Source of the DNA: Manduca sexta
Lineage: Eukaryota; Arthropoda; Insecta; Lepidoptera; Sphingidae
DNA: 64,000 nucleotides
Direction of reading: 5' to 3'
NCBI RefSeq assembly: GCF_014839805.1
Contig: NC_051140.1
Span: 16,778,448 to 16,842,447, forward strand
Under the pieces are notes generated by a model. The model worked only from the letters and a program-made list of their open reading frames with translations, did not search any database and was not told the DNA's origin. Of the stretch, positions 33,454 to 60,785 are shown piece after piece (position 1 is the first letter of the stretch; every line of letters starts with the position of its first letter). The position numbers were made by a program, and so were the translations under genes.

Positions 33454-36400
33454 TCAAGGCGTATTGGCAGTAACCTTGTGCCCCTTCATGCTCGTCCTGG
33501 CTTTGCTCTTAGCGTACTTACTGCAGTCAGCGACGAACGCGACAACAGCTATCAAAGCGAAGACCGCGTAGAACACCGCGAGGCATATGAGGAAGCTCTC
33601 CTCGTTGTGTTCCCAGATGTGGGAGGCGCGGAGGTACTCGTAGTTCGAGAGGACTTGAGTTCCGTTCGGCGGCGGGCACGGGGACTGGACTATTATGTCC
33701 TGGTAGGGTCTCTGTGGAAGAATATTAAATTTTGGAATTTTGTTTATCAAATTAATTGGTTATTTATTTGACAGGATTGGAAGTGATTGTGCTTTATATT
33801 GGTTGAGCTGTATGAAAAGTTACATGCCTAGTAACTGAAATGTGTTTTCATGAAAGAACGATACCATTCGGCCAAGAACGGTAATTTATGCTGAAGAAGT
33901 AGCTCATTTCACAGTCCTATCAAACTATAGATCCAATCTCAATCGTATCTATAACTGTATTTGTCTCATTAAAAACCTATTCTTATTGCCTCTAAGAATT
34001 CATCCGCTATAAGCATCAAAGAAAACCTTTAAAATCACCTAAAATCAATCAAACAAAACAAAACAACACCAACCTGTTTATTGGTACATCTGATCTCCTT
34101 ACTAATACTAGTTTTGAGCGCGACTTCGCTCAGCTCCTTTCGAAGCACTTCTGGCAGTGTCCACGTCGATGGCGACACATACTCCAGCCAGCGCAAGTAC
34201 TGCGGTATGTCTAATCGGTGTAACATCACGCCGTTCACTAGTGTGCTGAGGAGTAGGCAGAGACCCGCCAAAATAGCGGCCGTCTTCTCCATTGGTATTA
34301 GGAATATTAACGCCCGACACAGCATCTGTATGCTGATTAGATAGAGCACCATGTAACCTGAAAGAGAAATGGTATTGTTAAAGAATTTTGAAGTAATTTG
34401 ATATGACAGTAATTTGAAAGAAAAAAATCGAAGCTTAACCTGCGTCTAGTGGCAGAAGAAGCATTTTTCTGCCGTCAAGCAGCAGTGTGTACTGTGTAGT
34501 CACTGTTGTGTTCCCGATTGAAGGACATTGTAGCCAGCGTAACTACTGGATATAATAATACTTACCATCTAATGTCTCAGTATGGAGAGAGCAGTGGAAT
34601 ACCAAACGATACTTTGCAATTCAAGGTATTGGATGGTGTTTCTACTGTTTATGGACGGTCGTATCGCTTAACATCAGGCGAATGTCAAGCTCGTCTTGTC
34701 ATTCATAGCAATAAAAAACAAAGAAGTAGGGAACCTATCAGAACTTACCCAACCGATATGGTGATTACAAACATAATAATTTTAAAGTATGCCAACATCT
34801 TATCATTTGATCATCTTTTAAATCTTTCAGTAGCTAAGAAGACTCAGACATACCTAAATAAATATAGAATCCGTCGAAGGAGCCAGGCGACTGCGCGTAC
34901 AGGCCGGTCATGGCGTAACTCGGCACCAGATACGCCAGCCACGTCAGCACCGATGACCATAACTCGAGGAATTGCTGTAAAAATAATGAGGGTTGTATTG
35001 TAAACCCTCTTCTAATCCGCAATTATCTACTGACATTTTCAATAAATGATTCCAATCGCTTTTTTCGAACTATATCAATAGAGGACTAATCAGGTCAAAG
35101 TTTCTTTTGACACATATAAATGAGTTATTTTGATTGGTTCATTCTCGGCATCGGATTGAAGATTGAAATTGGGCGCGTTTATTGACAATGGATGTTACCT
35201 GCATAGTGAATAAAGTGCAATACTTGTATGTCCATCTTAAACTCCTCCTTTCATATGCCTTTTCTGGCATCATATGCCTTTAAGCAACATTATAGGCTAA
35301 CAAGTTTAGATTTAGATATTATTAGTTCGGAGGACCAATTTGTGTTCGTAGGACCAAAATCAGCACATCTCTAACACTCTCCTACAGATTCTATAGTTAC
35401 TATTGCGTTATTAGAGATATAAACATTTAAGAATAAACGACCTAATAGGTCTAGAAAGTCACTGGAGACCGTTCTCAACAGGCTCATATTTAAATACTTG
35501 GAAGAGGCCTACACGCAACAGAGGATATGGAGATTATCATGGTGAGGAACTGGAAAGTCACTGGATTTCTACAGGTTTATCTTTAAATACTTGGAATAAG
35601 CCTATATGCAACAGGGGATATGCAGATTATCATGGTGACGAACTGGAAAGCCACTGGATTTCTACAGGTTCATCTTTAAATACTTGGAAGAGGCCGATAT
35701 GCAGATGAGCATGGTGAGCAACTGACATCGAAGAGTATGAAGACGGTGCGCGAGTAGAGGCCGGCGCGCACGTCGCGCTCCACGTGCGCGCGCGCGGCGG
35801 CGGCGTCGCGCGCGCCCCACAGCAGCACCGGCCACGCGCACGCGCACAGCGACGCGTAGTGGAACCCCACGCGGTCGTTCTGCGACAGCTGTAAGTATAA
35901 CATGACGAGTTTTTATTAAACAACTCAAGTGACCCGTTCAAATCAAAATTAATTGATTGTTTTGGCAAAAGTTTATTTGGTTACGCCTCTGGTGTTTCAG
36001 AATACTTATTTTTTGGGTTTTTAAGAAAAGTCCTTATTGCTGCTCATACCTTATTTTAAACGCTCCTTTTCCTCGACAAACATTTACGAATTTTGACTTT
36101 TTTCAAAAAGGATACAAAGGCAAACACACTTCACAATTTTGTTCACGAAGGGATAGGCAGGCCTGCAAGTAGTTGAACCGGTACTGGAACTTGGTACGTC
36201 ATAGATGTGCAGTATCGTATCGCGCAATACCACTACACAACCGAGGGAGTTCAAAATAATACAATGTGAAATATAAGTACAATACCTTAGCATCGGTGGT
36301 CGGCAGGTCCCAGAATATGGTGCCGGTGATGATGGACATAACGGCGGCTATCAGCACTCGGGTGATCACGTTCGACAGCGTCGTCATCTGCGTGTACACC

Positions 36401-39400
36401 AGACTCTTCCTATGAAGTCAAAATGTTGGTGTTAATGTGCGTATAATGTTCATAAATCAAAATTATTTTTAAAAGGCATAGCATATTGGAGTTTATACCG
36501 AAACCTGTATTGTTTTTACGTTTAGAAAAGAAGGCATGAAAATAACATTTTTTTAAGATTTCCGTGTTTCTTATTAGTTAATGCGGTATTTAAATTCATC
36601 TTGCTTTATACTGTAGTTCGTGTAAATTGTTTTCTAATATTTATATATACGTATGAGATCATTTTCACATTGCGTTAATAAATTAAATTACATATATCAT
36701 CTATTAACGTATATTTTCATCAAATATCCCAGTTATACGTTTCGGATTTTTGGTCATTGTGTAGTTTAGTTCGAATTTGACGTGTGCGTTTATGCGTAAA
36801 ATTTCTATTACTTTTTATTGATAATTTTATTTTGTTTGAAACAATTTTTTTTTATTTTACGTCGAACTTATTGTTCGTTAGTTAGAAGATTATAATAATG
36901 TAGTTTCGTTTAGAAGCACAGTGTCAAAATGTTCGTGTATTGAGAGCGACTGACTCGAGCAGCGCGAAGGCCTGCAGGTGTGCGCGGGCGCGGCGCGCGG
37001 GCGCGGGCAGCGGCACGGGCGGCGGCGGCTCGAGCGCGCCGCGCGCCGCGCCGAACACGCCCGCCAGCGCCTCCACGCGCCCCGACGACTCCAGCAGCGC
37101 CGCCGCCGACAGGTCGTCCAGCGTCACCAGGTCCACTGCGCAAACAAACCTCCACACAGTTACGACATAGTCAGGATAACTGCACAAACAAACCTCCACA
37201 CAGTTACGACATAGTCAGGATAACTGCACAAACAAACCTCCACACAGTTACGACATAGTCAGGATAACTGCACAAACAAACCTCCACACAGTTACGACAT
37301 AGTCAGGATAACTGCGCAAACAAACCTCCACACAGTTACGACATAGTCAGGATAACTGCGCAAACAAACCTCCACACAGTTACGACATAGTCAGGATAAC
37401 TGCACAAACAAACCTCCACACAGTTACGACATAGTCAGGATAACTGCACAAACAAACCTCCACACAGTTACGACATAGTCAGGATAACTGCACAAACAAA
37501 CCTCCACACAGTTACGACATAGTCAGGATAACTGCACAAACAAACCTCCACACAGTTACGACATAGTCAGGATAACTGCGCAAACAAACCTCCACACAGT
37601 TACGACATAGTCAGGATAACTGCGCAAACAAACCTCCACACAGTTACGACATAGTCAGGATAACTGCGCAAACAAACCTCCACACAGTTACGACATAGTC
37701 AGGATAACTGCACAAACAAACCTCCACACAGTTACGACATAGTCAGGATAACTGCACAAACAAACCTCCACACAGTTACGACATAGTCAGGATAACTGCA
37801 CAAACAAACCTCCACACAGTTACGACATAGTCAGGATAACTGCACAAACAAACCTCCACACAGTTACGACATAGTCAGGATAACTGCGCAAACAAACCTC
37901 CACACAGTTACGACATAGTCAGGATAACTGCGCAAACAAACCTCCACACAGTTACGACATAGTCAGGATAACTGCGCAAACAAACCTCCACACAGTTACG
38001 ACATAGTCAGGATAACTGCACAAACAAACCTCCACACAGTTACGACATAGTCAGGATAACTGCACAAACAAACCTCCACACAGTTAGGACATAGTAAGGA
38101 TAACTGCACAAACAAACCTCCACACAGTTAGGACATAGTAAGGATAACTGTACAAACAAACCTCCACACAATTATGACATAGTAAGGATAACTGTACAAA
38201 CAAACCTCTACACATTTATGACATAGTAAGGATAAGTCCACTGCACAAACAAACCTCAATACAGTTAGGACATAGTAAGGATAAATCATGGCTACTATAG
38301 TCTGTCCAGAACCGTCGTGGGATTTGATGTCGCTCATGTGCTTAATTACCTCTTTTTAACCGACTTCAAAAAAAGGAGGAGGTTATCAATTCGACGTGAA
38401 TGTCATTTTTTTTTTGTTTAATCCTAGTATGTTTCTAAACAAAATTCCTTAAAAACAACACGCAAGATCATTTATAACAAAGCAATACGACATGAGGATA
38501 ATACGACGTTTAACATTTACCAAATGGCGGGGAAGGTTTTTTTTTGTTTTTTGTGTTTCACTAATGCTTATTTGTGTTTCAATATTAGCTTGTTTTAGTG
38601 ATTACTAAAGAGTGAGGTGGGGCGAGAAAGGTCCGCTATTGGATACGTTGCCCACTCGCCCTTGGCGGGGAAGGGTTACTATGTTAAAATCGATAGTTAG
38701 TTCACTTTTCGACCACGACGGTTCTCTTTCTGAACACACAGTTACGACGTATCATGCAAAATTCAATATATTATATCTTAAATGGCTTAATAAAAAAATA
38801 TAATAAATTATTTAAACAATAACAAACTCACAATAATAATCTGATGGATTTTTAAAAGCTGGACAAGGATAATCTATGGATGAGAAATATGGCAACATGT
38901 CTCTTCTGTACCCGCTGAACATCGTCCTCCCCGCAGATATCAACACAACCTGGAAAAACAAGAAATTTAAACAATCATGTTCTTACTATAAAACATACAA
39001 ATACACCTAAAAATATAATAGTTTTTTCTTTCATACTTTTATATACAGGGTTAATATTTTTTCTAAAAAGAATATATTTGTTTAAACTTTGTATTATCAC
39101 GCATTATAATCCCGACCATAAACAATATCTCTCAAAAATCGTTCTAAAAATCTAATTTGTGAATAATTTTATAGCATATCAAACTTACCTTAGTTAGCAT
39201 CGCGAAGATCTCATACGTGGGCGGGTGCAAGGACATAATAACCACGCGACCTGAACTCGCCCAGTTCCTGAGGTATTCCACCAAGAAGAACGTGTCGAAG
39301 ATGTCCATCTCCTTGGTAGGCTGGTCCAGGATCAACACCGCCATGTCCAGGAGAAGCTGACACGCGACGTTCAACCGACGTATCTCTGAGCGAGTGAGAC

Positions 39401-42400
39401 GGCCTACGTTCGTGTCCCTCACTTGCTCGAGGCCTAACTCTTCTATTAACAGGTTTATCTAGAATGACATTTGACGGTTAAACACTAACAAACATAATTT
39501 AGAAACAATATTCGTAACACCAGTGACGAACTTAGATCTATAAGTTGGAAATGAGCAGATATTGACAGACACAAAAAATTACTAGACATACCATCAATGA
39601 AAAATAACTTAATAAGTTAAAGAAGACTTAGATGACGCTAACTCTTTTTGTATATGAGATAATATTTTCTTATCAGGAATCTCTATACGTCTATATCACA
39701 AGTCACGACACTCACCCGATCTCTATCGTCCATCTTGACCTGGCCGTGGTTGTGTCGCGGCCGGCGCAGCGCCGCGTGGAACCGCAGCGTGTGCTCCACC
39801 GTCATCGAGGGACACAGCGACGTGTCGTTCCTGACGTACGCCGCCACCTTTCTGAGTGTAGACGATGCCACCGGCTGCCCGTTTATCACTATGTCTCCTG
39901 ACAGTTTCTGGAAAGGTGTTATTTACGGGATTAAAGAGGATTTTTAAAACAGATATCATATTAGTAGGTGATACGATGCAAAATATTCGGAAGTTCGTTT
40001 TCCTAATAGTATATCTATATATATCTTAGATGAGAAGCAATTGCAAAAGAAAACTAAATTAATAACTAATATGAAACATCGACATAATTACTTTATCATA
40101 CATCACATCTTCCACCCATGATAAAGCGTTAAAATTTGTTTTTTTTTTCTATTAGACATTGGAAAAAGAACTACAGATCAGTGCATAAATCTTCAAAGAC
40201 GGGCTATGTTGAGTAGTGGACTACTTATCGCTGATGATGAATACTTATGATAAAATGAACACACAAGACAGCAATAAAGTTGTCCTTACTTTTCGAACAC
40301 CAGCTAAGACGTCAAGAAGACCGGTGGCTTCCTGTTGTGACGTGGCCAACACCGCCAGTATCTCTCCAGACTTCACTTCAAAACTAAGCCCTGACACCAG
40401 CAGCGTCGACTTGTTCTCCGGTGATGTTATTTCTAAACTGTTTACCTGCAAAATTAAGACTGGATGTTAACCTGTTTATGAATTTATTGAAGATAAGTAA
40501 TTTAGTTTCTTTTTTGCAAATGAATATGTATCAACTGAGCAACTAAGTTAATAAGCAGTAATTCGAAACCGAATGTATTTATAAATGTTTGTAACAAAGG
40601 TATTGTTATTAAGTATTTGCTGACGGCATAGTTTTATTATGTATTTTTAAAGTGCTTCTTTCATCAATTTAACTTACATAATAATTAGGATAAATGTAAG
40701 CGGAGTGCGTGTATCCATCGAGGTGGTCTCCAGGCCTGAGGGTGGAGTGTTTCCTCGACTGCGCGACGGACATATGGCTGCCCGCCTTCGACATGCGCCC
40801 GCCCAGATGAGATGACGGCATTAGGTAGCTGGGGAAACCAATTTAAACACTAAAGTTAAGTTTAGACTAGCAAGTTCTTGCAGCAATATATTGCGAAAGA
40901 CTTTAACTACAAATTAATAAATTCGTGTGGATTTACATCCGTCTCCATTACGTCTAATAGCGACTAAAATATTCATTATAGCTCATTATTCGTTGATAAA
41001 TTATCTACCTTAACATTACCACAACATACACTATAATGTTGAATTTCCTATCCTTGACCTATAGTAAAATCAACCTGCGGCAATGACGTAATGCCCAAGC
41101 CTTTAGCACGACTTACCTATAATTTTCGTTTACTTCTGATATTTACAATTGTACCATTTTGAATTGTAATCCTAATAACACCAGTATACACTATAAAACA
41201 GACGAAACGGCCTTCCGTTTTGCACGACAATTCAGAACAATGTGACTGTGGTGCGTAAAATTTTACACACATACATATTCGTACTCCATTGGGATTAGTG
41301 GGTTTGTAATTATATTCTTTTGTTAGTTCGTTATGACTGCTCGTATTCAGGAAAAATAATTAGTTAACTAAATATACTGGATATGAAAGATCGCTGTCTC
41401 ATTATTCCAAGGTCCTATGTTAATTATGACTGCAAAAATGGGATTAAAAGTTTTCATGTCGGTAAAAATTAGAAAAGGCAATTCATGGTTCCCCCTTATT
41501 TATTTTCCGGGATTATTGAAAATTATCATTGAAAAACACTTACAATCATGTTACATATAATTAAATCTGCATATCTAATATAAAATAAAACCTTGTAATA
41601 GTGATCCAGCGAGATAATTATATTGATGCAATCTTTTCAAAAATCAAGCTTTGTAGTTATTTTAATGTTAGTCCTGAATCTGATAAAAGAAAAACGATAA
41701 AGTATTGTTAGTCATAGTAAACTAGCTAAGATCATTCCCGCTTTCCAATAGCGAGCTGTTGAAATCTGATGCATCGATGGGTATTCGTCATATCTATAAT
41801 AACATTATCTATATACTAATAAGTAACCTCCTCTATCACTGTATTACTCACATTCAATCAGTAAACCGGCTCACACAAAACTGATCATCCTTGGTTTCAA
41901 AGTCCGTGCACCACAACACTATTTACTTTGGTTGAGGGACAGTAGGTGGTGGTCTTTTCATATATCTTAGTCTATTTGTCCGCGAGGTAGCTTCTAGGTA
42001 TATAAGTGATGACCTTACCTATGATGATCACCATCAGGTACAAAGTCAGCGACGCTGTTCCGCCTATTGGAGTACTGGGAACGGTGGGGTCTTGCATCTA
42101 TTCCGAGAAGGTTGGCCTCGCTGACGGACTTGTGCCTAGAGTTTACCCACTGTGGTTCGCCTCTGATGCCGGCTTGCTGCATCGCTACCAATGGCACACC
42201 TGTGCCAGGCTGAAAGACATAGAAAATCATGAATTCAATACATTTTATTTCATCGATAATTCACAAAAACGAGATCCAAAGCAAACAAAACCCAAGGTAG
42301 ATTCCGCTAGATGATTTTTATTTCTAAATACCTATAACAATATCAAAAATCAACAACACTCACTTGATACGATGGATGTAAGTTCTGCATTCTGAAGTCA

Positions 42401-43808
42401 GGATCAGAGCGATACTTTCTACTGTACTTGTTGTAATTAGTCGTCGTTTCGTTATCTGAACTGTCATACCCTGACGAAGTTTCACGAACCCCTCGACTTT
42501 GCCTGTGTATCCTTTGAAAACAATTAAATTCTTTTAAGCATTATCGTTTCGAAAGGATTTAACCATTAAACGCACTGAAAAACGTTAGTACTAGTAGTTA
42601 ATTCTTCTTCTCTGCATTTAAAAAAGATGGTCCAAGAAATCTACCCACTTAGTTTTAATTTTTTTAAGATATCCTTCAAATGTTATCATACCTGGGTGCT
42701 GGTTTCATCCCGCTCCCAATGGAGGTCTTCGGTTTGGGCGTTCCCGATCTCTGGGAGCCATTGTGGTTCGGTGGGAATACTCGAGGTAGACCAAACTTGA
42801 GGTATGTGTACATGTTTGAGCCGAGAGCTGATCTGCAAAGGAATTATAGCTAGAATACATTACGAAAGAAATAAGTACACTTGCTGACAGAAAAATCTGG
42901 ATATAATTAAGTTCAATGTTCTTCGTTATAATAGTAGTAAAAACACAAATACATGCGGTTTTTAACAATTAAAAAGTAATTAATTTGAAGATGACCTAAT
43001 TTAATATTAATCTATAATTTATTACAAGTAATAACAATCATAATAATTTGTACAGTTGCTTTAATCTACAATCAATTACAATGATAATTATATGTATAGT
43101 TGTCATGGGTATTTGCAGGTTGGAGTAGTATTGCTACGATCAAAATTTGAGATTTTTTCCCCCAAGTTGAAAGCTCGCTACGCCCATGACAACTGTAAAA
43201 CCAAAATAGAATAACATACTTGGGTCCATATCGAGGGTGTGAGAGGATCGACTGCACGGTGGTGTCTCGCAGCTGGAAGTTCCCGTAGGGCAGTGGGCTC
43301 TTATCCGTGCTGCCAAGAGCACTGTCCGTGAAGTCGGAGTTCAGGTTTTGCCTTCAAGAACGTTAATTGATTTAGCAACGCGAACGGTCAGTAACAAAAA
43401 TGTTAAGGTTACTTGCTCAATGTCTTTCTTCCTCAATTTTCCTTAATTATTGTTGATTCGAGTCGAGTCACAAACATTTTAAATTGACCTTTGATTTAGG
43501 ATTTCATTTATGAATTCAATTTCGATATTTAGATAGAAAAGGAACTTATTTTATATTTTACCCTACATAAATGTTAACTCAAATAGTTCTTCGATGACTT
43601 TTTTAAATTCAATCTTAAATTTTTTCTTAAATGTCTCTCTATATTCTTCTTTAGTAAGAAAAATTTCATCGACGTGGTAACCATTGTACCTGTATATGGA
43701 CCAAGCGTGCAGATCCTCGGAGTGCATCCCTCTAGGGTCTTGCATCAGCGGGTTAGAGGGAACCGAGTACCGCCGCTCCCCACCCAGGCCGAGAGCCGAT
43801 TGTGACAT
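33454..43808 (-). CDS. ABCG5/ABCG8-like half transporter with degenerate ATPase motifs, 16 exons
   Basis: Exons (minus): 43808-43690, 43351-43220, 42832-42692, 42511-42364, 42209-42019, 40828-40678, 40445-40290, 39907-39716, 39458-39189, 38949-38832, 37135-36955, 36409-36286, 35888-35727, 34974-34854, 34357-34074, 33711-33454. All phases agree, giving 915 aa. Residues 1-294 are a long polar Ser/Arg-rich N-terminus. Residues 295-500 form the nucleotide-binding domain, and six membrane segments follow from about 600. Motifs are eroded: Walker A is LATSQQEATG (327-336) instead of GxxGxGK(S/T), the Q-loop is YVRND, the signature is VGRLTRSEIRRL (428-439) instead of SGG, and Walker B is LILDQPTKEMD (E to Q). 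The H-loop His488 remains. The conserved NPSDYYLDL bridges exons 10 and 11. Family members work as plasma-membrane heterodimers exporting sterols or lipids. The ABCG8 rather than ABCG5 type is inferred weakly. Exons 11 and 13 are strikingly GC-rich. Confidence 0.93.
34465..34712 (-). repeat. Interspersed repeat family A, copy 3, in ABCG intron 14
   Basis: Landmarks in reverse are CTGCCGTCAAGCAGCAGTGT, GGACATTGTAGCCAGCGTAA, GAATACCAAACGATACTTTG and TCGTATCGCTTAACATCAGG. It lies wholly in the intron between exons 14 and 15 and gives rise to a misleading plus-strand frame. Confidence 0.85.
35123..35200 (+). repeat. Half-copy of fold-back MITE, ABCG intron 13
   Basis: TTTTGATTGGTTCATTCTCG, ATCGGATTGAAGATTGAAAT and GCGTTTATT match, with divergence, one arm of the element at 62222-62383. 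The other arm is not clear here. Confidence 0.45.
35450..35726. repeat. Tandem repeat, about 92 bp x 2.7, abutting the donor of ABCG exon 13
   Basis: CATGGTGA anchors recur at about 35539, 35631 and 35710, with GAACTGGAAAG(T/C)CACTGG and TTTAAATACTTGGAA in each unit. The last, shortened unit merges into the exon 13 donor region. The exon-side unit has GAGCAACTGACATCG (plus strand), where the others have GACGAACTGGAAAG. The array probably grew out of the splice-proximal intron sequence. Confidence 0.8.
37136..38290. repeat. Minisatellite, 26 units of 44 bp, at the acceptor of ABCG exon 11
   Basis: Units begin at 37137 and repeat every 44 bp up to 38193. A last diverged unit starts at 38242 after a 5-bp insertion. 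Plus-strand landmarks are TGC(G/A)CAAACAAACCTCCACA and CAGTTACGACATAGTCAGGA. The first 20 or so units are almost identical apart from one G/A position, and the last five diverge. On the gene strand each unit contains GTGGAGGTTTGTTTG(T/C)GCAG, the acceptor of exon 11. The exon starts right after the first of these. No spacers separate the units, so it is not a CRISPR array. Confidence 0.97.
38350..38425 (+). repeat. Common lepidopteran repeat (CCGACTTC...GGAGGAGG)
   Basis: TTTTTAACCGACTTCAAAAA, AGGAGGAGGTTATCAATTCG and ACGTGAATG are repeated almost exactly at 59280-59345. A short repeat of unknown class in ABCG intron 10. Confidence 0.65.
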
Positions 43809-57125: not shown

Positions 57126-57284
57126 TGGAATGTCAATATCCAGGCATGAACCTTACATTAGAAGAAATCGGTGGTGTGACCAAGCGGCAAGCGTTCAGTC
57201 CACTAGGGTCACTATCCAGTAGCGCCTCGTGTGAAATTAATTAAATTTACACCATATGAAATATGTAATAAGGTTGATTGTTAC

Positions 57285-60214
57285 CTTTGGCCCCGTATCC
57301 GACGATGAGCACTCCGTGGTCCAGATTTGAGGGGTTGCAGAGCATCCTCCATGGATGAGATATCCCACCCATGTAGAACTGCATAGCGTTCGCGTTTATA
57401 CCTGCCGAATACAACGTTATATCATTTTTAACCGATTTGAAAAAGAGGTTTACTCGATTCATAAAATAATTAATGCTCACATGAATTTATTGTCTTAAAA
57501 ATTTATGGATTTTTACTTTATACGATATTGTGTTTGTTTTTTCAATGTATAGGAGGAAATTTGAAAATAGGAGATACATGGAAACTGTCTTTGGAACGGT
57601 TAGGCTATTTATTGAAAAATTTTATTGGTCAAAGGCATTGACGTATATTCTATAGACACGAACGTCCATATAAACTATTTGTTCAAAATTCGAACTAAAA
57701 TGGCGACCGAAACGTCACTATGATAACCTATTTGTTCACTTGAACAACAAATAATTTTACTTATTGACTAATATTTTTTATTCTTATCCAAGTTTACACT
57801 TAGACTCGAGTTTTTGTATCATGAGCGCCATTCCGTACACAACCACAAGCTGCCAATATTGACCATACTATTATAAAGTCAGTTTGAATAGATATCAGTT
57901 CAAATCAGTTGAACACAGTGAATGTTCGGAACGCCAAATCTAGTACGTAGTACATATTATATCGTTGGTCAAAGGTGAATTGTCACACTTGAAAAAAAAT
58001 ACTCTATCAAAATACTCTTACAAAAATAGTCTATCATGAACTCTATGGCTTCGAATTTCCAAACACTATCCTAGTAAGAAAATCTATAAATCTATATATA
58101 TATGGCGTGGTCACGCGGCGCGGTGAACGGCTGGACCGAGTTATCAATTTTTTTATTGTGTTTGTTATTGTCAAGAGAAGGTTCCTATGAAAGAAAAATT
58201 CAAAAAATAGCGCGGAAAATTAGAAAATTTACGAAAACTTAATGAAAATATTAATTTTATATAACTGTCAATTGTTTGAAATAACTGTCAGCGATTGACA
58301 GAATGCGCGCTGCAAATTCATAGTTAAGACGGGACAACGTCTGTCGGGTCAGCTAGTACCATATAATTATAGCTTTTAACGGTAGGTACGGAAAATACAG
58401 TAAGAAATAAATACTTTTCAAGATCTATTAGTTGCATTATCGGTAGCAACAATATTTAACAAATAACTTTAAAAAGAACAGGAAAAGGACATATAGTTAA
58501 CATTGACTGTAAACACATTATATTAACTTAGGTGGGTATCTTATCTATTTGTCTATCTAATTTTTTTACAGTTTTTGCTCTGGATTCCGTCTCCGTATAA
58601 GATTCAATATTCTAAGCCTGATAATACCGGGTCTATATACAATACTTGCACTGCTCAACACGGACCTCCTCTACAATTGAGAGGGCCATAGTCGACAACG
58701 GTGGTTCAATACGGATTGGCAGACTTGACATACCTTCGAAATTCTTATGGAAAATTTAAGATAGGTTACCTCGCTATGGTTTCTTTCACCGTTAAATCGA
58801 ACGAGAATTGAGAATACACAATAACTGCGACAAATGTGCTTTGAGTTTTGAAGGTCCACACCTTCGTCTTGGCAAGCGGTACCAGTCCGAACTAGGTTAT
58901 CGTGTACTTATAACACTTAATACTACAGATTGTTCCAGCCAAAAAGGCAGAATCTAATCTATGATCCCAGAAAACACGAAACAATAAAGAATATCTTCAA
59001 CTTCAAGATAATTGTAAGACAAGCAGGAACTAAGGAAAGTTGGAGGCAATCCTTATAGAAGAAAGAATGGCGTCAATAGAAATTATTTTCGTGAAGTTGG
59101 CCTTTTGAATAGGAAATATTTACTTACTCCAATTGTAGACGTAAATAATTTGCATTTTATTACCATATTTCATTAATTAGTTACACATAACAGCTGTTTT
59201 ATCGCGGAAATAATGTAACAGAGGCATGTACTTTACTTACAAGTGCACGTTTATTGGAACAGATGTTTTATTTTTTATTTTTGAACCGACTACAAAAAAG
59301 GAGGAGGTTATCAATTCGACGTGAATGTTTTTCACTTTTTTTTTCTTTGTTACAATAACAATATTACATTATTGTAGAACAGTGGAAACTGGCATTTGAT
59401 CACAAACATTTAATTATATTTATCAAATTGTAGAACAGTGGGAACGTAGTTACGAAACGTAGTAAGAAAGCTGTAACGAGAACTCTTTGAAGGATTACAT
59501 TATCCATAGTCACTAACCACAGAACAGCTGAACATAAGCGTACACGGTCATTTTGACATTGCGTTAATAAATGAAATAATCCACCTGTGCTAACATTGTG
59601 CCAAATATCATCCATGAATACCGAATGTTTTCACTAAAACCCCGGTTTGCTTTCCTCGTGTAAAATAAAAATCACTTTTTATTGAATATTTATTTTAGTC
59701 AAAAACAACACGGTTTTACTCACGTATTTGACTAATTTAATATGTCTCGCGTAAGTTTTAATAATAATATTTATTTTGTTCGATACTTACACTTTTTATT
59801 TTACATCCACGGTTCCAGTAACTTATTGTAAAGTGGTATTTCTAAGAAGTTTAGTGTCTGGTTTTATTTAGTAACGGAATGTCAAAATGATCCTGTATAT
59901 TCCACTAATGATATCCAGACCTGCTAGGCCAGCGTGGTGGACTAAGGCCTAATCCCTCTCAGTGGTAGAGGAGGCCCGTGCTCATCAGTGGGCAAGTATA
60001 TAATACAGGGCTGATATTATTATAAAGAACCTTACCGATAGAGATGGGTCCGTGCTTCACCAACCACTTGGCCATGTCAGTCTCGTTAGAGGTGATGTTG
60101 ACAGCGCCGCTGATCTGTACCCTCGCCAACGTCTTATTGAATGAGCACTTGTCGTCCGAACCCTCGTAGGGATAATCATCTTCGGACTCCAACCCGCCGA
60201 GCTGTTCTATTGCC
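57285..60214 (-). CDS. Cathepsin F-like C1A cysteine protease, two internal exons (partial)
   Basis: Exon 60214-60036 encodes AIEQLGGLESEDDYPYEG through AKWLVKHGPISIG. Exon 57401-57285 encodes INANAMQFYMGGISHPW through NLDHGVLIVGYGAK. They join in phase 1 with canonical GT-AG signals. The order (GGLE.EDDYPY, GPIS.GINA..MQFY.GGI, LC.....LDHGVL.VGYG) is that of the papain-fold R domain of cathepsin F, a lysosomal endopeptidase. The catalytic His is the H of LDHG. The Cys-containing exon must lie beyond the window. The Asn (KNSWG) exon should lie below 57.28 kb but was not found. If the donor at 57284 is ignored, the frame continues GNNQPYYIFHMV and stops, with PYYI aligning to the PYWI before the missing KNSWG. 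The gene is therefore partial and possibly broken. Confidence 0.82.
57636..57964 (-). mobile_element. About 329-bp non-coding transposable element, copy 2, in the cathepsin intron
   Basis: It matches 7476-7800 in reverse orientation throughout. The 11-bp direct repeats TTGGTCAAAGG at 57625-57635 and 57965-57975 flank it exactly and look like a target site duplication. Confidence 0.85.
58083..58356 (+). mobile_element. Helitron-like non-autonomous element
   Basis: It starts TCTATAAATCTATATATATA and ends GACAACGTCTGTCGGGTCAG, then CTAG before T. A TC 5' end and a CTAG|T 3' end, without inverted repeats, fit Helitron ends. The pattern is common in Lepidoptera. The expected subterminal hairpin is weak. 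Confidence 0.5.
58608..58912 (-). mobile_element. SINE family B, reverse copy
   Basis: In reverse it shows TACCGCTTGCCAAGACGAAG, GGTGTGGACCTTCAAAACTC, GTTCGATTTAACGGTGAAAG and GCCAATCCGTATTGAACCAC, collinear with the full-length copy. The head is lost. Confidence 0.7.
59280..59345 (+). repeat. Common lepidopteran repeat (CCGACTAC...GGAGGAGG), copy 2
   Basis: TTTGAACCGACTACAAAAAA, GGAGGAGGTTATCAATTCG and ACGTGAATG match 38350-38425. Confidence 0.65.
59925..60026 (+). mobile_element. SINE family B tail next to the cathepsin exon donor
   Basis: TAGGCCAGCGTGGTGGACTA, AGGCCTAATCCCTCTCAGTG and AATACAGGGCTGATATTATT end about 10 bp from the exon border at 60036. The intronic bases after the donor are thus SINE sequence. 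Confidence 0.8.
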
Positions 60215-60254
60215 CTGCAAGTTACATTATGCAAAATAAATAATGTTGCCATGT

Positions 60255-60785
60255 TTTTTTACTGACCCCGCAGTCAACACCGAGGGAAGCTTGTGAATGG
60301 GATACTGGGATCCCCTTAGCGACTGCAGACCCTGGAGGAAAGTTGGGAGGGAATATATGGGGAATATGTGAAGGAAGGACAAGGAACACTCTAAGAATGA
60401 GGAGAGGGTAGAAGACCAGGAAATGTTCGTGAGCCCTTATATGCTACAATGTGAATTGGCAACCATAAAATGGAAACCAAGCTCAGAAGAATTGATGGGG
60501 AGGGGGCTAATGTTTCAGTATTGTTCTACCAATTCTTTTGTTTTTTACATACGGACAGGAAAAATAGACTTCATTGCATCTGATGTTAAGTGGAGTGGGT
60601 CCAGGTAATGTTGACTGAGCAGATGATTACCCCTTGCTAGTTGACAAAATTATGCTGGCCTGAGTTTTGAAACCGGCACGCGATACGCTTACGTGGACTA
60701 TTACGAAGGGTTTTACACATCGTATACGTTGGAAAATGTCCCCGCGAATACAAATAACTTCCACCAGCTATTATACTGTTGTTTA
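60255..60785 (+). repeat. Interspersed repeat family E, long copy
   Basis: It begins CTGACCCCGCAGTCAACACC and continues through GTGGAGTGGGTCCAGG, GATGATTACCCCTTGCTAGT and ATTATGCTGGCCTGAG to TACGTGGACTATTACG. The second half aligns with 25.9-26.06 kb. Non-coding. Confidence 0.6.

Follow-up and report, generated by a model that had tools for sequence, protein, structure and literature searches.

A 26-copy array of acceptor-region repeats abutting exon 11 of a Manduca sexta ABCG8 orthologue, probably a mirage-type minisatellite

The ABCG8 locus

The window, a stretch of 64,000 nucleotides of Manduca sexta DNA, contains on its minus strand a transporter gene whose exons were assembled by hand. 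The best database match of the 915-residue model is a hypothetical protein of Manduca sexta (P0001, 96% identity), which is itself a predicted protein. Many moth proteins among the matches listed are named ABCG8, and the best match in the PDB is also ABCG8. Two Pfam domains were found in the model, ABC_tran at residues 312-458, followed by ABC2_membrane at residues 597-803. The succession of an ABC nucleotide-binding domain and an ABC2 membrane domain, together with ABCG8 as the nearest named relatives, identifies the predicted gene product as that of an ABCG8 orthologue. The features needed for the following sections are:

33454..43808, minus strand: predicted ABCG8 orthologue, hand-built model of 16 exons, 915 aa, one open frame
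38832..38949, minus strand: exon 10, leaving one base (T); donor TATT/GTGAGT
37136..38831, minus strand: intron 10, 1,696 nt, of which the array occupies 1,149 nt
36955..37135, minus strand: exon 11, 181 nt; donor CGA/GTCAGT

The residues at the junction of exons 10 and 11, DYY/LDLVTLD, are identical in all 12 aligned orthologues, one of them a Manduca sexta protein; the 12 were taken from 120 listed and all are predicted proteins. Since the junction is kept in 12 of 12 orthologues, position 37135 is supported as the start of exon 11, and the predicted orthologous proteins are consistent with regular splicing of exon 10 to exon 11.

Exons 11 (36955-37135) and 13 (35727-35888) appear very GC-rich by eye in a genome that is AT-rich. 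The product of exon 11 is a linker rich in proline and alanine, which is variable among moths. Two ABCG8 entries, P0038 of Bicyclus anynana (746 aa) and P0039 of Eumeta japonica (706 aa), are without a listed PF01061 membrane domain, which may reflect either annotation faults or real short forms.

The array in intron 10

The 3' end of intron 10 consists of tandem repeats, recognized by TRF as a single array at 37135-38284 with a period of 44, 26.0 copies and 97% matches. It is divided as follows:

37136..38284, minus strand: the array, in which the acceptor region is repeated 26 times, each copy with a branch-like motif, a short T/G-rich tract and CAG
37136..37179, minus strand: copy 1, the genuine acceptor of exon 11 (...TTTGCGCAG); junction conserved in orthologues
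37180..38059, minus strand: copies 2-21, decoys whose mutual differences are solely T or C at -5
38060..38284, minus strand: copies 22-26, diverged outer decoys, each departing from the consensus by 2-5 differences; this part contains the 5-nt relic described below

The 44-nt unit at the 3' end of the intron is TTATCCTGACTATGTCGTAACTGTGTGGAGGTTTGTTTGTGCAG. Read on the gene (minus) strand, all 26 units finish in TTTGTTTG[T/C][A/G]CAG, so that the 26 tandem copies of the exon 11 acceptor announced in the original prediction are borne out by TRF and by the motif alike. Exon 11 begins directly after the first unit, as had been claimed, with 37135 adjoining copy 1. The motif GTGGAGGTTTGTTTG[T/C]GCAG, which had been ascribed to every unit, is present in 23 of the 26, whereas copies 24, 25 and 26 differ. 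Successive units are spaced by 44 nt in 24 of 25 cases; only between copies 26 and 25 does it amount to 49. Position -5, occupied by T or C, is the only one that varies within copies 1-21, copy 1 included, and copies 22-26 are those most distant from exon 11. For a 7-unit period, permutation yielded p values of 0.0059 (lag 7), 0.019 (any lag) and 0.14 (runs kept).

In a search of the 470-Mb genome with a tool that scores best candidates only, no match to the unit was found beyond the array. The same kind of genome search revealed a single copy of exon 10, with no further copies, and one full-length match of exon 11, with no second full-length copy; its 10 other partial matches (72-80% identity) are GC-rich look-alikes. 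A second haplotype in the assembly was considered, and none was seen by the exon 10 or the exon 11 search.

An assembly error, by which the copy number or the whole array would be artefactual, is suggested by the near-identity of the units and by the short-read polishing applied to the genome (PMC8022704), which can blur unit variants. The Nanopore reads, with an N50 of 9,156 bp as given in the available part of that source (PMC8022704), are long enough to span 1.15 kb, the window is without any N, and a collapse artefact would not be expected to give diverged outer units or the 5-nt relic. An artefact is very unlikely; what is doubtful on this account is the exact copy number only.

The exact abutment of the array on exon 11 has to be weighed against the frequency of such arrays. 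A sample of 200 kb from 20 contigs (500 N) contained four arrays of at least 500 bp with at least 5 copies and a period of at least 10. Given the 25,256 genes of Manduca sexta reported in the part of the genome paper that was available (PMC8022704), chance alone would place one end of approximately 40-80 arrays genome-wide at 2 bp or less from a splice site, a rough estimate that assumes random placement and 4-8 introns per gene. With 40-80 coincidences expected, abutment on a splice site alone is no proof of function. The repeat itself is far beyond chance; that it terminates at a splice site is less noteworthy.

Splice signals within the units

Each of the 26 units ends in CAG and contains a branch-like motif, which is CTGAC in copies 1-21 and CTTAC in copies 24 and 25, whereas copies 22, 23 and 26 possess two such motifs, CTTAC and CTAAC. 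The branch A lies 35 or 24 nt before the final base of CAG. The tract is weak: between -24 and -5, pyrimidines occupy 11 of the 20 positions. At a constant offset, every one of the 26 units moreover contains a donor-like site that the original prediction had missed and that is new here:

37150..37152, minus strand: donor-like GAG/GTTTGT, example of copy 1; gene-trained score 6.24

Among the 3,930 GT of the gene strand, the site ranks at the 95.8th percentile, and in a leave-one-out comparison it outscores 5 of the 15 real donors of the gene. The scoring models are small, having been trained on 15 donors and 14 acceptors. With the acceptor model, the genuine site of exon 11 scores 0.07, the lowest value of the gene's 15 acceptors (next lowest, 0.98), and the decoys score 0.07-0.53, 17 of 25 slightly above the genuine acceptor and 8 of 25 equal to it. 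Since the decoys score as high as the genuine acceptor or slightly higher, site strength is not what discriminates between them. The stronger statement, that the decoys surpass the genuine site, was dropped; the gaps are tiny (0.07 versus 0.07-0.53) for a model built on 14 acceptors. A stronger AG, with a score of 5.23, is situated upstream of the array at 38364.

The low score of the genuine site, the lowest of 15 in this small model, would suit a scheme in which the repeated weak acceptors cooperate, jointly attracting branch-region factors in aid of the weak acceptor next to the exon. Arguing against this scheme is that the branch-like motif of every unit meets its own AG first, such that factors recruited upstream would favour the decoy AGs. 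Cooperation of this kind is very unlikely.

Consequences of decoy use

All 25 decoy acceptors lead to a premature stop. The phase had been predicted correctly: exon 10 leaves one base, and with 24 of the 25 decoys six codons, FILTMS, are read before the stop, resulting in a protein of 545 aa. Copy 26 used as acceptor gives 37 codons and then a stop (576 aa). The decoy-derived proteins retain ABC_tran and lose ABC2_membrane, in agreement with the NBD-only product that had been foreseen, so that truncation as the consequence of decoy splicing is a sound prediction from the reading frame. The decoy stop codon lies 208-1,220 nt ahead of the exon 11/12 junction, and at this distance decay of the decoy messages is likely. 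The 50-nt rule for such decay derives from mammals, and insects may differ.

The donor-like site adds a second route to truncation. Since it outscores 5 of 15 real donors in each unit, poison exons within the array are plausible, formed by the acceptor of one decoy and the donor-like site that a later unit provides. Their predicted length is 30+44m nt, a few being 5 nt longer, and all 325 possible pairings truncate the protein, at 545-666 aa.

The Walker A region of the Manduca protein (exons 7-9, 39189-40445) reads ATSQQEATG, versus GSSGCGRAS in the ABCG8 of the PDB, so that the nucleotide-binding domain looks degenerate; on its own, the truncated protein would hence probably lack ATPase activity. 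A protein corresponding to a decoy isoform, 500-640 aa in length, was not present among the best 120 of 1,098 hits to the 545-aa product, a weak negative as the search covered predicted proteins clustered at 90% identity.

These consequences could be put to use if the number of units set the amount of full-length ABCG8, the decoys diverting messages either alone or as poison exons with the donor-like sites. Truncation by all 25 decoys and all 325 poison exons and a genuine acceptor that is not stronger than the decoys speak for such a rheostat; the weakness of the decoys as sites speaks against it. We consider it unlikely, also in view of the comparisons made below. Slightly lower still is our estimate for the more specific form, in which the array would be a heritable ladder of poison exons, any two units bounding a stop-carrying exon, and its length would determine the share of unproductive ABCG8 messages.

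Selection of the exon-adjacent copy

The original prediction envisaged a spliceosome that scans from the branch point across up to 25 decoys. This picture needs correcting, as every unit possesses a branch-like motif ahead of its own AG, and scanning from one branch point would reach the AG of that unit first. With motif and AG paired in each unit, the choice must be made at the selection of the branch region, before scanning for AG.

RNA hairpins that hide the decoys and leave the genuine acceptor open would be one means of selection. The array RNA indeed folds better than shuffles of the whole sequence (z -3.80), but its fold is ordinary when compared with 1,000 tandem arrays of shuffled units (z +0.18). 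Moreover, the predicted openness of CAG is 0.004-0.016 for the genuine acceptor, compared with 0.006-0.046 for the decoys (mean of copies 2-25); the genuine CAG was less open in three of five settings, equally open in one and more open in one. The local hairpin is also stronger at the genuine copy, -16.6 versus -10.2 kcal/mol. Masking by hairpins was therefore rejected in silico, unit-shuffled arrays folding equally well and the genuine CAG being no more open, and it is the least probable of the readings considered.

The likeliest discriminator among the acceptors, we infer, is exon definition. Exon 11 has a length of 181 nt when copy 1 is used, 225-313 nt with copies 2-4, and 1,286 nt with copy 26. 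Together with its own donor, exon 11 would define the 181-nt exon at copy 1, which would then be used in most messages; the decision would fall when the branch region is picked, and the decoys would be mostly silent. Occasional use of a decoy, most plausibly of copies 2-4, would result in early-stop messages that are likely degraded or give rise to an inert fragment. Cells probably tolerate the array, the length of which could nevertheless influence how often the ABCG8 message is assembled correctly.

Origin of the array

The additional 5 nt that separate the outermost copy from its neighbour indicate how the array may have arisen:

38236..38240, minus strand: TGGAC, located between copies 26 and 25 and matching the opening five bases of exon 11; it raises the spacing here from 44 to 49; probable relic

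Copy 26 continues with TGGAC and then TTATCC, and exon 11 starts with TGGACC, whereas in the other units CAG is directly joined to TTATCC. As a T is common to all junctions, the match to exon 11 amounts to four additional bases and occurs solely at the junction with the extra 5 nt. The TGGAC, which was not contained in the original prediction and is new here, is likely a relic of the founding duplication of the boundary. The founding tandem duplication would have taken the 3' end of the intron and five bases of the exon; later rounds would have amplified solely the 44 bases of intron delimited by TTATCC and CAG, and would also have homogenised the copies on the exon side. A dispersed repeat as the source of the array was rejected on the basis of the best-candidate genome search, in which the unit matched this array alone. 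With no match elsewhere in that search, the unit probably derives from this intron.

In the most plausible reading, to which we assign a probability of roughly 0.7, the array is a near-neutral minisatellite of the mirage type, grown from an intron/exon boundary within intron 10 of ABCG8, and the exon-adjacent copy is chosen by exon definition with some leakage. The sequence itself shows the 44-nt unit and the relic of the exon, inner copies that are homogeneous and outer ones that are diverged, an array that adjoins exon 11 exactly, and the effects of the decoys on the reading frame.

Comparison with known systems

Mirages are tandem minisatellites of intron/exon boundaries described in amphioxus (PMC3087553, PMC3902484). 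According to the available portion of the first report, their inner units are homogenised, the edges are excluded and the length is unstable, and in the amphioxus globin gene BflGb6 one haplotype contains 6 units and another 3 (PMC3087553). The Manduca array is likewise a tandem minisatellite of a splice boundary, with the genuine boundary at its end; AG/GT signals occur in many mirage units, CAG and the donor-like site in all 26 Manduca units. It also displays the homogeneous inner copies and diverged edge copies that in mirages reflect concerted evolution with exclusion of the cluster edge. It differs from BflGb6 in its location in an insect gene, in its 26 copies as opposed to 6 and 3, and in its unit, which is intronic apart from the 5 nt of exon origin that follow a single copy; in BflGb6, exon sequence is part of the unit. 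On the features examined, namely boundary-derived units, splice signals and a homogenised interior, the array appears to fit the definition of a mirage, the exon part being minimal.

As far as can be taken from the accessible parts of the two reports, Adh3 data and globin RT-PCR suggest that mirages leave regular splicing undisturbed (PMC3087553), and no disturbance is reported for the Adh and TnC mirages (PMC3902484). This argues against control of ABCG8 by unit number. Support for such control comes from the VNTR in intron 18 of human ABCA7, composed of 25-bp units whose first two bases form the exon 18 donor, with 23.7 units in the reference and a polymorphism of about 12-427 units (PMC5954066). 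The length of the VNTR correlates with skipping of exon 19 and with reduced expression. Single-unit retention is also observed, but in the part of the study available it does not vary with length (PMC5954066), which again weakens the case. Both arrays are intronic, reside in an ABC transporter gene, start exactly at a splice site and resemble each other in reference copy number. The Manduca array, however, is on the acceptor side rather than the donor side, so that it ends at an acceptor where the ABCA7 array begins with the donor GT, and the sequences are unrelated. By analogy, the described cases point both ways, mirages appearing not to disturb splicing and the ABCA7 VNTR appearing to matter. 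Tuning of ABCG8 by copy number is possible; a ladder of poison exons, if real, would be an insect equivalent of the ABCA7 VNTR on the acceptor side.

Dual-specific splice sites of polyubiquitin genes offer a further parallel, as described in the available text (PMC10809524), in that repeated units can hold both acceptor and donor signals. Unlike the polyubiquitin coding repeats, the Manduca array is intronic, and its donor-like and acceptor sites occupy separate positions of the unit.

Earlier descriptions of boundary minisatellites concern amphioxus and, for the donor side, a gene involved in human disease; no description of a comparable array in an insect was found in the titles and abstracts of the mainly open-access literature searched. 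With 26 near-identical acceptors in a laboratory insect, the array would make it possible to test directly how the spliceosome chooses among identical sites and whether copy number tunes the output of a gene. If splicing is normal, it demonstrates the strength of exon context over local site sequence.

Further observations in the window

Next to the array, TTAACCGACTTCAAAAAAAGGAGGAGGTT is found at 38350-38400; it is presumably similar to the tail of a retroposon common in moths. A nearby piece of the flank, 38296-38334, matches one other contig at 93%. The ABCG8 gene contains a second tandem array, in intron 13 (35478-35703; period 93 bp, 2.4 copies), which starts about 23 nt into the intron from the exon 13 donor, the donor itself not being repeated; the plus strand is open across this array, with 31-residue repeats. 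Elsewhere on the minus strand, at 57247-60258, reading frames recognized by eye resemble a cathepsin of the papain family.
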